DNA of 8,749 nucleotides from Candidatus Zixiibacteriota bacterium (lineage in GTDB: Bacteria > SM23-81), in NCBI GenBank assembly GCA_030628225.1, contig DAOVRJ010000095.1:1-8749 (forward strand), read 5' to 3'. The position numbers and the translations under genes were made by a program. Below, in pieces: positions 2,447 through 8,032 of this stretch. Numbering within the stretch: position 1 is the stretch's first letter; the number at the start of each line of letters is the position of its first letter. The notes under the pieces are model-generated. The model was not told the DNA's origin, ran no database searches, and worked only from the letters and a program-made list of their open reading frames with translations.

Positions 2447-3700
2447 GTGGATAAAATCGTCATCGCCGGTGGCAAAAAGCTTTCCGGAACAGTGCAGATC
2501 AGCGGAGCCAAAAACGCCGCCCTGCCCATGATGGCGGCCACGATCCTGGCTTCCGGGCAGAGCACCTTGCACAACGTGCCTCATCTGAAGGACGTGAGCA
2601 CCTTCTCGGATGTGCTCCGCGTTTTGGGAGCGCGAGTTAAAAGGGAAGAACATGGCTTGACCATTGACACTTCGAGCATCGAGCACTTTGAGGCTCCCTA
2701 CGAGCTGGTGCGGACCATGCGGGCGTCCATTTATGTTCTGGGACCTTTGCTGGCTCGATTCGGTCAGGCCCGAGTTTCTCTGCCCGGTGGCTGCGCGTGG
2801 GGTCCCCGTCCGGTGAACCTGCACCTCAAAGCCATGGAGGAGTTGGGGGCTCAGGTAGAAATCCAGCACGGATATATCGTCGCCCACTCAGAAAAGCTCA
2901 GCGGTGCCGTCATCGATTTCGACGTGTCAAGCGTGGGGGCCACGGCCAATACCATGATGGCCGCCTGTCTGGCCTCGGGCACCACCGTCATCCGCAATGC
3001 TGCCCGGGAGCCGGAGATAGAGGCTTTGGGAGCGATGCTCACCTCCATGGGAGCTTCCATCTCTGGAGTGGGCACCGGCACGGTGGAGATCCGGGGGGTG
3101 GAGGGTTTACATGAAGTTCAAGAGAGAGTTATTCCTGACAGAATTGAGGCAGGCACGTATATGGTGGCCACCGCCATAACGGGAGGCGAGGTAACCCTGA
3201 AGGGAGTGCGCGTGGACCACATGGGTGCTGTCATCGCCAAGCTGGAGGAAGCTGGGATTGTAATTCGGCAAGAAGGTGAGAACCTGGTGGTGGAGAGAAC
3301 CTCATCCCTGGCCCCCCTGGACATAACCACCGCGCCATACCCGGGATTTCCAACCGATATGCAAGCTCAGATCATGATCCTGCTCAGCCTGGCCCGAGGC
3401 ACCAGCGTGATTACGGAGAACATTTTCCCGGACCGGTTTACCCATGTCCCCGAGATCCGTCGGATGGGGGCCAATGTGAAATTGGACGCCAACGTGGCCG
3501 TGATTACCGGGGTGAAGGAACTGAGTGGGGCACCCGTGATGGCCTCAGATCTTCGGGCCAGCGCCGCCCTCATTTTGGGGGGTCTGGTGGCTAAGGGAGA
3601 AACGGAGGTCCTGCGCATCTATCATATAGATCGAGGCTATGAGCGGATCGGAGAAAAGCTTCGCAGATTGGGTGCCGAAATCCATAGAGTAAGAGAATAA
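2447..3700 (+). CDS. murA: UDP-N-acetylglucosamine 1-carboxyvinyltransferase MurA
   Basis: Cytoplasmic enzyme of the first committed step of peptidoglycan synthesis: transfer of enolpyruvate from phosphoenolpyruvate to UDP-GlcNAc. It has 417 residues, against 419 in E. coli. Seen: ISGAKNAALP with K22 and N23, SLPGGCAWGPRPVNLH with C116 (equivalent of the catalytic Cys115 that fosfomycin alkylates), PYPGFPTDMQAQ with D304 (general-base position), and IDRGYERIGEKL with R396 (equivalent of Arg397). The whole length reads as an intact inside-out alpha/beta-barrel EPSP-synthase-fold protein. The active-site cysteine is present, so the fosfomycin-resistant Asp variant is not expected here. It starts with GTG and leads the probable envelope operon; the next gene begins 134 bases after its stop with no terminator visible between. 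Confidence 0.97.
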   Translation: MDKIVIAGGKKLSGTVQISGAKNAALPMMAATILASGQSTLHNVPHLKDVSTFSDVLRVLGARVKREEHGLTIDTSSIEHFEAPYELVRTMRASIYVLGPLLARFGQARVSLPGGCAWGPRPVNLHLKAMEELGAQVEIQHGYIVAHSEKLSGAVIDFDVSSVGATANTMMAACLASGTTVIRNAAREPEIEALGAMLTSMGASISGVGTGTVEIRGVEGLHEVQERVIPDRIEAGTYMVATAITGGEVTLKGVRVDHMGAVIAKLEEAGIVIRQEGENLVVERTSSLAPLDITTAPYPGFPTDMQAQIMILLSLARGTSVITENIFPDRFTHVPEIRRMGANVKLDANVAVITGVKELSGAPVMASDLRASAALILGGLVAKGETEVLRIYHIDRGYERIGEKLRRLGAEIHRVRE

Positions 3701-3834
3701 GCCTGGGGCTGCTGTGGATTTCCCGGGAGAGGACGAAAGGCGGTTTTCAGATCAGCATAAAGGTTCTTCTGTTTGCCATTCTGCTGATGGTTTTCGCCGT
3801 GGTGACCAAATAACTGCCTGTTGAGGAGTTTTAC
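3701..3834 (+). other. murA downstream spacer with an unassigned hydrophobic reading frame
   Basis: No terminator or convincing promoter is seen in this spacer, so read-through from murA is likely. One frame, open from 3688 to a TAA at 3811-3813, encodes near its end a very hydrophobic segment (IKVLLFAILLMVFAVVTK, 3757-3810). It has no ATG, GTG or TTG in a usable place, so it is not called as a gene. It could be chance, a remnant, or a small membrane peptide with an unusual start. Confidence 0.3.
3823..3828 (+). promoter_or_regulatory. ribosome binding site for the GTG start at 3835
   Basis: GAGGAG lies 6 bases before GTG 3835. The protein then begins directly with a typical signal peptide, which supports this start. 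Confidence 0.75.
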
Positions 3835-6800
3835 GTGTTTCGTACAAGAATTACTCTTCTGTTGATTGGCGTACTGGTATTGTCGATGCCCCTTTTCGGC
3901 GCTGCCCAGGATTTTGGCAAGAACAAGGTCCAGTACAAGTCCTTCAACTGGTCTTACCTGCAGACCTCCCATTTCGACATCTACTTCTATAAAGGAGAGG
4001 AAGATCTGGCTTATTTCGCTGCCGAGCAGAGCGAGTATGCCTGCCAGCAGATCAAAAAGGATTTTCGGCACGAAATCCGCAAACGCGTGCCCATCATACT
4101 TTACAAATCTCACAATGATTTTCAGCAGACCAATGTGATTCTTGAGATACTGGATGAAGGGGTAGGTGGATTCACCGAATTTTTTAAAAACAGAGTGGTC
4201 ATGCCCTTCACCGGTTCTTATGAGGACTACCGGCACGTTCTTCACCATGAGTTGACCCACGCGGTTATGATAGACATGTTGTACGGCGGTGGGGTTGGAT
4301 CCCTGATCCGGAGACAACGTTTTTTTTCTCCTCCACTCTGGTTCGTGGAGGGCCTGGCCGAGTATGAATCCTTGGGATGGGAAAAGGATGCCGACATGTT
4401 CATGCGCGATGCCACCATCAGCGGATATCTACAACCCCTCCCCTATGTACGAGGATTTCTGTTGTATAAGGAGGGCCAATCGGCGGTAAGATATATAGCC
4501 AATCGCTATGGTGGGGAGAAAATAGGAGAGATTTTGGGCAAGGCCAAGCTGCACAGAAATATGGAGAAAGCTCTGAAATCGTCTATTGGCATGGGGGTTG
4601 AAGGACTGGACGAGGAATGGAGAAAAGCTCAGCGGGTGATATACTGGCCTGAAATTGCCCGCCGCCAGGAGGCCAGGGATTTTGCTCGCCAGCTTACTGA
4701 TCACACCAAGGACGGCTCTGGTTTCAACCTCAGACCTGCTTTTTCACCGCAAGGAAAAAAATTGGTTTTTTTCTCGAACAAGAGTGATTATACGGATATA
4801 TATCTCCTCTCGGCCATAGATGGCCAGGTACTGGGCCGCTTGGTAAAAGGCGAGCGATGCGGAGGGCTGGAATCTCTCCGGAACTTCCGGAGCTCCATCG
4901 GTTGGTCGCCGGACGGCTCCAAGATTGCCTTCGTTGCCAAGAGTGGCGGTGGCGATGCTCTGTATCTGTTAAGAGTGCAGGACAGGAAGGTGATCAAGAA
5001 ATATTGTTTTCCTATGGATCTCATCTCCTCTCCCTCATGGTCGTCGCAAGGTGACCAGATTGTCTTAAGCGGTCTTGATGACGGGTATTCCGACTTGTAT
5101 CTGCTCCAGATCGAGACGGGGAAGCTGGTCCGATTGACCGAGGACCGTTATGATGACGCCGAGCCGGCTTGGTCTCCTGATGGGAACCGGATTGCTTTTT
5201 CTTCTGATCGCCCTGTTGCCCCGCAGGAAGAGGCCGACACGGTTTTTGTGTATGGGCATTATGATATTTTTATCATGGATCTTCCTGATGGTGGCATCCA
5301 ACCCGCGGTGATGGCCGAGGGTCAGCAGAGATCGCCCACCTGGTCTCCCCAGGGAGATAAGCTGTGTTATACGTCCGACGAGAACGGCATCAGCAACCTA
5401 TATATCATAGACCTGGAGAGCGAGGAGAGTTTTCCCATCACCGATGTGATCGGCGGTTGTTTTACACCCTCTTGGTCAGCTGATGGTGCAAGGCTGGCTT
5501 TCTCCTATTTCCAAAAGGGCGGTTGGGATTTGTACGTGATGAAGGATCCCCTGAACAATCGCTCAGAAGTGGTTGAGTTGAAACCGACTCATTTCGTGGC
5601 TGAGTTGAGGGATCAAAGGGAAATGGGCATTTCTGCAGCGGATAGTTTGCCAGCCCAATTGACAGTGGATAGCACTGCTGCGGTTCAGCAATTGCCTGCT
5701 TTCCAGAGAGATAGCCTGTTGGTTTTGACTATGGTCGATTCAGTGGCTTTGGATTCTAGCGACACGGCCCGCGGTCCATCAGCGACAGAGGAAGTGGATA
5801 GCGCTGCCGCGGTTCAGCAATTACCTGCTTTTCAAATAGACAGCTTGCTGGTTTTGAGCGAGGGTGATTCCACGACCATGGCTTTCTCCGACAGCACACC
5901 CATCACCTTAGGGCCACGGAAGTATCGGGTGAAATTCAGCCCCGATGTTTTAAGTGCCGATATGGCCTACGACACCTACTTCGGTTTGCAGGGACAATCT
6001 ATGCTGGCCCTGAGCGATCTTATGGGCAACCACCGCATTTTCCTGTTGTTTACCCTCTTAAATTCTTTATCTGAGAGTGATTGTCAGCTGGCCTATTACT
6101 ATCTACCCCGGCGAATCAACTACGGCATCGGGTTTTTTCACCTGAAAAACTACTTCATAGATCATTTACACCGCCTGTTTTCCGATCGGATCTACGGAGG
6201 ATACCTCAGTCTGTCCAGGCCTTTCGACAAATTCAACCGGATGGACCTTAGTTTGCAGGCCCTGACCATCGAACGGCGTTACTACGATCCGCCCCTCGAT
6301 GATTCCATGAATCGACTTTATAATCTTGTCGGTTCTCTGGTGCACGATACTGTCCTGTGGGGTAACACCGGGCCGGTTAACGGATCGCGGTGGAATCTGA
6401 CGGCAGAATATGCTCCTCTCATCGGCGGACATGCTAGATCTTATTCAAGAATTATATTTGACCGCCGATGCTACATTGACTACCGAAAGAAGTACAATTT
6501 CGTGTACAGAATGGCGGCCGGGACAAGCCTGGGCCGGGACCCCCTGCGGTTCTATCTGGGTGGAACTTCTAACTGGCTGGATGTGGAATTTTACCGTGGA
6601 GATCACTATTACTCAGTGGAGGATATCTATTTTTCTAACAGGATAACGCCCCTGCGGGGATATAATTATAACGAGGTTCAGGGTTCCAAATTTGGGCTTG
6701 TGAACCTGGAATTTCGGTATCCGTTCATCGATTATCTGCTGGTCCACTGGCCCCTGCGTTTCGGCATACGCCGGGTTAACGGGGCTCTGTTTTTCGACAT

Positions 6801-7008
6801 GGGCAGCGCCTGGGAGGAAACAAAGGCCTTCAAGGGAGGATCTACGGAGGGTGGTTCTCACCTGAAGGATCTGAAGACCGGCTTTGGTTTTGGGATGAGA
6901 GCCAACTTAGGTATCTTTGTGTTGCGTTTCGATGCCGCCTGGAAGACAGATTTTGATCAGGTATCAGCAAAGCCGAAGACTTACTACTCTCTGGGCGCGG
7001 AGTTCTAA
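3835..7008 (+). CDS. outer-membrane fusion protein: gluzincin metallopeptidase, TolB-like beta-propeller, Omp85-like barrel
   Basis: A 1057-residue exported protein that I read as three fused modules. Residues 1-24 are a signal peptide (cleavage near GAA/QD). Residues 35-270 form a gluzincin peptidase domain of the peptidase MA-like kind: zinc motif HELTH at 138-142 with E139 as catalytic base, and EGLAEY at 172-177 with E172 as probable third zinc ligand. Residues 295-572 hold six PD40/TolB-type blades, marked by WSPDG-like motifs near 304, 357, 402, 447, 504 and 548, each followed by an IAF-type strand and a D-(L/I)-Y strand. Residues 575-695 are a Ser/Asp/Ala-rich linker containing a 43-residue duplication. 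Residues 697-1057 look like an Omp85/surface-antigen barrel, with PLRGYNYNE (939-947) matching the conserved (V/L)RG(F/Y) loop and a final aromatic residue (YYSLGAEF) as expected of a barrel insertion signal. No POTRA domains are seen; the propeller occupies that place. Substrate is unknown; a role in outer-membrane proteolysis, assembly or secretion is inference. Confidence 0.85.
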   Translation: MFRTRITLLLIGVLVLSMPLFGAAQDFGKNKVQYKSFNWSYLQTSHFDIYFYKGEEDLAYFAAEQSEYACQQIKKDFRHEIRKRVPIILYKSHNDFQQTNVILEILDEGVGGFTEFFKNRVVMPFTGSYEDYRHVLHHELTHAVMIDMLYGGGVGSLIRRQRFFSPPLWFVEGLAEYESLGWEKDADMFMRDATISGYLQPLPYVRGFLLYKEGQSAVRYIANRYGGEKIGEILGKAKLHRNMEKALKSSIGMGVEGLDEEWRKAQRVIYWPEIARRQEARDFARQLTDHTKDGSGFNLRPAFSPQGKKLVFFSNKSDYTDIYLLSAIDGQVLGRLVKGERCGGLESLRNFRSSIGWSPDGSKIAFVAKSGGGDALYLLRVQDRKVIKKYCFPMDLISSPSWSSQGDQIVLSGLDDGYSDLYLLQIETGKLVRLTEDRYDDAEPAWSPDGNRIAFSSDRPVAPQEEADTVFVYGHYDIFIMDLPDGGIQPAVMAEGQQRSPTWSPQGDKLCYTSDENGISNLYIIDLESEESFPITDVIGGCFTPSWSADGARLAFSYFQKGGWDLYVMKDPLNNRSEVVELKPTHFVAELRDQREMGISAADSLPAQLTVDSTAAVQQLPAFQRDSLLVLTMVDSVALDSSDTARGPSATEEVDSAAAVQQLPAFQIDSLLVLSEGDSTTMAFSDSTPITLGPRKYRVKFSPDVLSADMAYDTYFGLQGQSMLALSDLMGNHRIFLLFTLLNSLSESDCQLAYYYLPRRINYGIGFFHLKNYFIDHLHRLFSDRIYGGYLSLSRPFDKFNRMDLSLQALTIERRYYDPPLDDSMNRLYNLVGSLVHDTVLWGNTGPVNGSRWNLTAEYAPLIGGHARSYSRIIFDRRCYIDYRKKYNFVYRMAAGTSLGRDPLRFYLGGTSNWLDVEFYRGDHYYSVEDIYFSNRITPLRGYNYNEVQGSKFGLVNLEFRYPFIDYLLVHWPLRFGIRRVNGALFFDMGSAWEETKAFKGGSTEGGSHLKDLKTGFGFGMRANLGIFVLRFDAAWKTDFDQVSAKPKTYYSLGAEF
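5665..5856 (+). repeat. two copies of a 63-bp repeat, period 129 bp, inside the fusion-protein linker
   Basis: Copy one spans 5665-5727 and copy two 5794-5856, encoding VDSTAAVQQLPAFQ-R-DSLLVL and VDSAAAVQQLPAFQ-I-DSLLVL. The copies differ at 9 of 63 bases, but only two changes alter the protein (Thr to Ala, Arg to Ile). The period is exactly 43 codons. It lies between the propeller and the barrel. Confidence 0.9.
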
Positions 7009-7024: not shown

Positions 7025-8032
7025 ATGCGTTGTGCGAAGGTTGTCGGAGTCGGATTGGCCCTGATGGTATTGACCTGGGCCCTGTGGGTCGGGGCACATC
7101 AAGGAACTATGGAGATGAGAGTCCGCGGACCGGGGGAGGGCTCATATTCAACTGCCCTTACAAAGGGAGATACCATCTGGTATTCCGGATTTGAGCCGGG
7201 AGACCCCCTGGGGGTCAACGTAGACTATAATGCCAAGGCTTCGCCGGATGAGTGGCACGTGACCAAGCGAATGCTCTACGAGGGAACTACCACCTGGATG
7301 ACGGCACCTGTGGACAGCTATTTCTGCCACATCGGCGACGACAGCGCCGGTTATAGCGATGGGAACGAGGTGGGTTATCAGATAGAGTTGGATCTTACCA
7401 ATTACAGCGATGCCAACCTGTACTATCTGAGTGCCATGCAGGCCTATGATGTCGGGGAGGTTTATGACAAATTCGTCGTCTGGGGGACGAACGAGGGGTT
7501 GGGGAGTTCCTGGGTCAATCTGGATCCTGGGGAGGGATATGCCTGGGGTGGGGACTGGGGGACCAGCTGGTACTCTCCTGAGGACTCCTTGATCTCCCTG
7601 GCCGGTTTGGTGGGGCATGCCGGGGTGATCATCGAGTTCTGGTTTTACGCCGATTCGGGCCATCCCGAGGGTTTTGGCGTAGGCATCGACGAGATAATCA
7701 TTACCGGGATACCTGCCACAGCCGTGGAGGAGGTGGAGGTTGGCTCTGCGCTCCCACATAATTTCGTCCTGGGTCGCCCATACCCGAACCCGTTTAATGC
7801 CCAGGCCTCCATCGAATATCAGGTTCCCGACGCTGAGGTCCACCTGGGGATCTACAATGTTCGAGGCCAACTGGTGAAAACCCTGGTTCAGGGGTCTATG
7901 GTGGCTGGGGATTATATTGTAACCTGGGACGGTCGGACTGAAGGAGGAGTGGAGGTGGGGAGCGGCGTGTATTTCTGTCTGCTTAGGTCTGGAGATATCG
8001 CCTTGGTCAGGAAGATGGTGTTGTTGCGCTGA
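7025..8032 (+). CDS. secreted protein with jelly-roll-like domain and C-terminal T9SS type A / FlgD-like sorting domain
   Basis: A 335-residue exported protein. Residues 1-24 form a signal peptide (MRCAKVV, hydrophobic core, WVGA cleavage site). Residues 48-230 ('GDTIWYSGFEPGD' to 'GIDEIIITG') read as one all-beta domain resembling the MAM-like/immune-inhibitor-A type carbohydrate- or protein-binding jelly rolls found on secreted proteases; no protease motif is present, so a binding role is more likely than a catalytic one (inference). Residues 246-335 are the sorting domain: LGRPYPNPFN, YQVP, IYNVRGQLV, TWDGR, SGVYFCLL and terminal MVLLR. The gene follows the fusion-protein gene by 16 bases with its own strong ribosome binding site, so the two are almost certainly co-transcribed, and the protein may be a partner or substrate of the upstream outer-membrane peptidase. 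The unit ends at the terminator at 8059. Confidence 0.85.
   Translation: MRCAKVVGVGLALMVLTWALWVGAHQGTMEMRVRGPGEGSYSTALTKGDTIWYSGFEPGDPLGVNVDYNAKASPDEWHVTKRMLYEGTTTWMTAPVDSYFCHIGDDSAGYSDGNEVGYQIELDLTNYSDANLYYLSAMQAYDVGEVYDKFVVWGTNEGLGSSWVNLDPGEGYAWGGDWGTSWYSPEDSLISLAGLVGHAGVIIEFWFYADSGHPEGFGVGIDEIIITGIPATAVEEVEVGSALPHNFVLGRPYPNPFNAQASIEYQVPDAEVHLGIYNVRGQLVKTLVQGSMVAGDYIVTWDGRTEGGVEVGSGVYFCLLRSGDIALVRKMVLLR

Follow-up and report, generated by a model that had tools for sequence, protein, structure and literature searches.

Ten subfamilies of Omp85/TpsB proteins were described by Heinz and Lithgow in 2014, and one of these, WD40-Omp85, combines a propeller with the barrel (PMC4104836). The authors compared this arrangement to a fusion of BamA with BamB. 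Their "Metallo" group is defined by a distinct domain, PF00149. A WD40-like group was still listed in 2024 as poorly characterised (PMC11116518). In PlpD, another Omp85 protein, the enzyme domain was demonstrated to lie in the periplasm, and deletion of PlpD causes an increase in phospholipids (PMC11116518). Outside the superfamily, the zinc metallopeptidase BepA is described as acting in quality control of outer-membrane proteins (PMC8423444).

The stretch of DNA that we analysed (8,749 nucleotides, referred to here as the window) encodes what appears to be a WD40-Omp85 protein of the outer membrane, with a gluzincin peptidase at its N-terminus (Table 1). It represents a conserved, often multi-copy protein of several little-cultured phyla. 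We found no characterised member in the literature, and our literature search found no publication covering both PF13485 and PF01103. The original prediction, made from the sequence, had treated the fusion as without a characterised precedent. That much holds, but the propeller-barrel subfamily was named in 2014 (PMC4104836), and the idea of such a fusion is thus already known. New here are the recognition of the peptidase, the fact that one clade has lost its active site, the set of paralogues and the neighbouring genes.

Table 1. Positions of the features in the window, with residue numbers of the encoded protein
Feature	Position	Strand	Remarks
Peptidase-propeller-Omp85 protein (P0001)	3835..7008	+	1057 aa ORF, GTG start
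Ribosome-binding site GAGGAG	3823..3828	+	6 nt 5' of the GTG, read in the sequence
Sec-type signal peptide, about residues 1-25, without lipobox Cys	3835..3909	+	Sequence reading; helix 2-16 in the model
Peptidase MA (gluzincin) domain, residues 27-296	3913..4722	+	PF13485; fold matches M9, M30 and M1 peptidases
HELTH, residues 138-142, predicted zinc-binding and catalytic motif	4246..4260	+	H138, E139 and H142 invariant in 105/105 intact sequences
EGLAEY, predicted third zinc ligand E172	4348..4365	+	E172 invariant in 105/105 intact sequences
Y211, proposed catalytic tyrosine	4465..4467	+	Invariant in 105/105 intact sequences; missing in 8/8 site-less sequences
TolB-like propeller, six blades, residues 298-570	4726..5544	+	Pfam, model, TolB fold match
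Disordered linker, residues 602-691	5638..5907	+	pLDDT about 30
Omp85 barrel, 16 strands, residues 701-1054	5935..6996	+	Model; BamA fold match; PF01103
LRGY in loop L6, residues 940-943	6652..6663	+	R941 and G942 invariant in 78 sequences, also in 8/8 site-less sequences
murA, upstream neighbour	2447..3700	+	TIGR01072, 577 bits; adjacency kept in the window's phylum and Zixibacteria

Several other features of the window were observed. Part of the disordered linker is duplicated as a direct repeat of 101 nt (5664-5764 and 5793-5893, 74% identical), of which the nearest relative (L034) apparently has a single copy. The flanking genes at 988-2235 and about 7025-8032 each encode a product that carries a sorting tail for type IX secretion (TIGR04183 above cut-off). 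The downstream ORF has a listed start at 6917, and its likely start is at about 7025. The gene order with these tailed flanking products is conserved in L034.

Domain architecture

The predicted anatomy of peptidase, propeller and barrel was borne out by Pfam and by an AlphaFold2 model of the window protein built from 78 sequences (full-length pLDDT 85.4, pTM 0.84). The HMM searches that had been proposed all gave matches: Peptidase_MA_2 at residues 72-264 (32.8 bits against a cut-off of 32.4, and 38.4 bits for the isolated domain), PD40 in five stretches (E 3e-30) and Omp85 PF01103 at residues 847-1040 (43.3 bits against a cut-off of 24). PF13485 was matched in 77 of 77 family members. The NCBIfam models for TolB (TIGR02800, 158.6 bits over the propeller part only, curated cut-off 343) and BamA (TIGR03303, 32.8 bits, curated cut-off 297) both scored under their cut-offs, and the window protein is therefore neither TolB nor BamA.

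In the model, the peptidase is mostly helical and extends to about residue 276. The propeller has the six blades that had been counted in the sequence. The region predicted to form a 16-stranded barrel, residues 697-1057, does have 16 strands, but they begin at about residue 701, and residues 602-691 are a disordered linker. Eleven strands precede the LRGY loop and five come after it, which is the Omp85 order. As anticipated, the window protein has no match to a POTRA family in Pfam at E values up to 1. At the same threshold it matches neither the calcineurin-like phosphoesterase domain PF00149, the mark of Metallo-Omp85, nor the patatin domain, the mark of PlpD. The 16-stranded barrel with (V/L)RG(F/Y) in L6, between strands 11 and 12, places the protein in the Omp85 superfamily. 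The TolB-like WD40 propeller N-terminal to an Omp85 barrel is the feature of WD40-Omp85, an assignment made by features.

Fold searches against the PDB matched the propeller to TolB (Z 29.4 over 244 residues, 2.0 A) and the barrel to BamA (Z 23.1 over 305 residues, 4.3 A). A sequence search of the PDB with the peptidase domain gave only chance-level matches, so we relied on the fold search for this domain as well. Modelled alone (pLDDT 86.6), it matched M9 collagenase (Z 17.7 over 230 residues, 3.3 A), M30 lugdulysin (Z 16.5 over 235 residues) and also M1 aminopeptidases; few families make up the matches listed, and the absence of other families among them is uninformative. M9, M30 and M1 peptidases are HEXXH-plus-Glu (gluzincin) enzymes. 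The window protein has HEXXH, a downstream glutamate as the predicted third ligand and the matching fold, the features of gluzincins in the Peptidase MA clan. The spacing from E139 to Y211 is 72 residues, close to the 73 that separate E242 and Y315, the pair mutated in lugdulysin according to the PDB entry title, and Y211 is therefore probably the catalytic tyrosine.

The ~90 disordered residues between propeller and barrel in the window protein could be taken to favour delivery to the surface, with peptidase and propeller reaching the outside of the cell by way of the barrel, as was formerly proposed for PlpD. We consider this very improbable. The linker is short in paralogue B, and the enzyme domain of PlpD itself proved to be periplasmic (PMC11116518).

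Distribution and loss of the active site

At least 567 relatives were found in a scan of one genome per species. They occur in Zixibacteria, KSB1, Ignavibacteria, Marinimicrobia, Calditrichota, Eisenbacteria, Kryptonia, LCP-89 and other phyla, which supports the suggestion that the three domains co-occur in FCB phyla. The contig scan was queried with N-terminal-domain patterns and is thus biased toward members that have this domain. In the phylum of an Ignavibacteriales genome, where the whole protein was the query, 66 of 99 genomes were positive; nearly all of the matches lie within frames of more than 900 aa, which suggests that the N-terminal domain is a regular part of the protein. In the window's phylum, the gene is present in all four genomes, along with additional paralogues. 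With hundreds of carrier genomes, a fusion produced by chance or by assembly is ruled out.

Three paralogue groups were distinguished, and all 13 of their members keep the predicted active site. At L032 4245-8263 (G000 contig C59), paralogue B (951 aa) is followed by a BamB-like PQQ lipoprotein that scores 242.6 bits with TIGR03300 against a cut-off of 285. Paralogue C (L033 5437-8499, G000 contig C166) is distant, with 24-25% identity and the motif HEFTH. It lies in the type IX secretion cluster, near the genes for PorU, for PorV-like proteins and for an M6-like metalloprotease that is inactive. A further paralogue frame (G006:C149:14209-15885) has one in-frame TAG stop.

The predicted zinc site is intact, as originally read from HELTH and E172, and is invariant among intact members. 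We aligned 113 sequences of all paralogue types, with two genes counted twice from two sources. H138, E139, H142 and E172 are kept in 105 of the 113. In the other eight (L158-L161 and L174-L177) all four residues are missing and the overall architecture is retained. All eight come from the phylum of the Ignavibacteriales genome, and we infer from that phylum that they belong to Bacteroidota. Of the peptidase columns with conservation of 95% or more among intact sequences, six are lost in every one of them: R120, H138, E139, H142, E172 and Y211. Present in all eight are P167, W169, G173 and G214 of the peptidase domain and R941, G942, E959, R961, P963 and D988 of the barrel. The eight form a single clade with support of 1.0, with or without the peptidase columns, a grouping that long branches could aid. 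No recurrent gene pointing to a function was found in their neighbourhoods.

The simplest reading of these alignments is that catalysis was lost one single time and that the remainder of the protein stayed under selection. Because the active site was lost while the fold, the propeller and the barrel motifs persist, catalysis appears to be separable from the core role. This argues against processing of clients as the core job. The clade also provides a natural control for separating the role of the protease from that of the barrel and propeller.

Neighbouring genes and other envelope proteins

The genes beside the family differ between lineages. Among the 78 loci surveyed, murA is directly upstream (within 410 nt) in 13, in addition to the window, and at two loci the gene ends overlap. 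This is the arrangement in the window's phylum and in Zixibacteria. In 16 Ignavibacteria-like loci the gene directly upstream is that for RNase R, which is itself preceded in 13 of the 16 by an AsmA/TamB-like gene (1385-1561 aa, some copies being split or cut by the contig end). At one further locus the AsmA/TamB-like gene is on the opposite strand, making 14 loci altogether. The MlaE permease gene is directly downstream on the same strand in 10 of the 78 loci, at a gap of -130 to 328 nt, in at least three phyla including LCP-89, Calditrichota and Fidelibacterota. All of the flanks together contain 11 MlaE genes, and 10 of these directly follow a peptidase-propeller-barrel gene. MlaF comes next after MlaE in 5 of the 10 loci.

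Two other observations concern the surroundings. In six KSB1-like loci (L054, L060, L071, L072, L114 and L120), a gene for a GWxTD-domain protein follows the family gene. A 1381-aa protein encoded at L144 5354-9499 (G000 contig C190) has no Pfam match and, in its C-terminal part, a weak match to TamB.

The genes beside the family suggest a lipid or envelope-assembly partner, and MlaE and the AsmA/TamB-like proteins are direct candidate partners for an Omp85 protein that lacks POTRA domains. One possibility, which we regard as unlikely, is that the barrel works in lipid traffic. It would take in or remove phospholipids at the outer membrane, where a path formed by MlaEF or AsmA/TamB-like proteins has its distal end, and the propeller and peptidase would regulate that path. 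The 10 loci with MlaE directly downstream, spread over at least three phyla, and the 14 loci with an AsmA/TamB-like gene nearby are consistent with this, as is the rise in phospholipids upon deletion of the related PlpD (PMC11116518). However, the neighbour in the window's phylum and Zixibacteria is MurA, and most loci have neither MlaE nor an AsmA/TamB-like gene beside them.

The other envelope proteins of carrier genomes also bear on the role. A BamA-family match above cut-off was found in all 16 genomes tested, including all 12 other carrier genomes. The window's genome separately encodes a true BamA, which rules out that the window protein is the genome's own BamA, as well as a POTRA-bearing Omp85 protein adjoining TamB. 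No stand-alone TolB scored above cut-off in this genome. We also rejected identity with a component of the Flavobacterium johnsoniae BAM complex, for which PMC12611786 names no propeller, peptidase or metallo- subunit.

The original prediction envisaged a self-contained machine, in which the propeller selects clients, the peptidase processes them and the barrel inserts or exports them. Three intact modules in one chain and the conserved BamA-type barrel motifs would fit such a machine. We now think it quite unlikely. Lipid-transport and cell-wall genes adjoin the gene in several phyla, and such conserved neighbours suggest that the protein has partners. In addition, a separate BamA-family protein was present in all of the genomes tested, and the site-less clade retains everything except the site.

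It could also be that the protein assists type IX secretion by trimming T9SS cargo or controlling its quality, a proposal to which we give little credence. In the window the gene has T9SS-sorted proteins on both sides, the genome encodes PorU, and paralogue C lies within the PorU cluster. However, these genomes encode a great many T9SS-tagged proteins, so those on the flanks may be there by chance, and the window gene itself is outside the T9SS cluster.

Proposed role and relation to known systems

We tentatively favour envelope biogenesis as the core role, and postulate that the protein is a periplasm-facing, TamA/BamA-like factor in which the propeller serves for docking and the peptidase is an optional module for quality control. 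The C-terminal barrel would sit in the outer membrane with both of its ends in the periplasm, and the propeller and peptidase would thus lie on the periplasmic side, like the enzyme domain of PlpD (PMC11116518). The barrel might thin or remodel the outer membrane locally, as TamA and BamA do. The propeller could dock a client, either protein or lipid, or a periplasm-spanning partner, for which the candidates are MlaEF, AsmA/TamB-like or BamB-like proteins, according to lineage and paralogue. The peptidase might trim or clear stalled clients, or regulate the partner, and proteolysis would be an add-on that one clade has given up.

We favour envelope biogenesis because of the Omp85 topology (11 + 5 strands, LRGY in L6) and the TolB-type propeller; because the gluzincin fold has an invariant HEH, E and Y that were lost jointly in one clade; because the neighbours include MlaE, RNase R with AsmA/TamB-like genes, MurA and a BamB-like protein; and because BamA is encoded separately. 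Against envelope biogenesis, the neighbourhood is indirect evidence and varies by clade, MurA and RNase R share no single pathway with MlaE, and the window's own phylum shows no association with MlaE or AsmA. We speculate, as a bolder and rather unlikely proposal, that FCB bacteria have a hitherto unrecognised outer-membrane machine: a lipid path of the MlaEF or AsmA/TamB-like type would terminate distally in the Omp85 barrel, the fused propeller and peptidase would gate it, and one Bacteroidota clade would run it free of proteolysis.

Of the known systems, WD40-Omp85 shares with the window protein the Omp85 barrel, the N-terminal TolB-like WD40 propeller and the lack of POTRA domains. The text of the 2014 description does not mention a peptidase domain, and proteins of the window type may well belong to the 2014 set (PMC4104836). 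PlpD, the patatin-Omp85 protein, likewise joins an Omp85 barrel to an N-terminal enzyme domain (PMC11116518). However, PlpD has a lipase and POTRA, whereas the window protein has a predicted zinc peptidase and a propeller, and is without POTRA. The BamA-BamB and TamA-TamB systems resemble it in barrel fold and L6 motif, but its blades are of the TolB type rather than the PQQ type, it lacks POTRA domains, and its genome encodes both BamA and the TamB-adjoining POTRA-Omp85 elsewhere. TolB has a similar six-bladed propeller (Z 29.4); in contrast, the window protein lacks the TolB N-terminal domain, scores below the TolB cut-off and is fused to a barrel. M9 collagenase and M30 lugdulysin share the peptidase fold and the HEXXH/E/Y arrangement at 12-14% identity, but in the window protein the peptidase is a predicted one and is tethered to the membrane. 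Lastly, the resemblance to the zinc metallopeptidase BepA is confined to the proposed role: BepA is a separate periplasmic protein, and in the window protein the peptidase is fused to a barrel.
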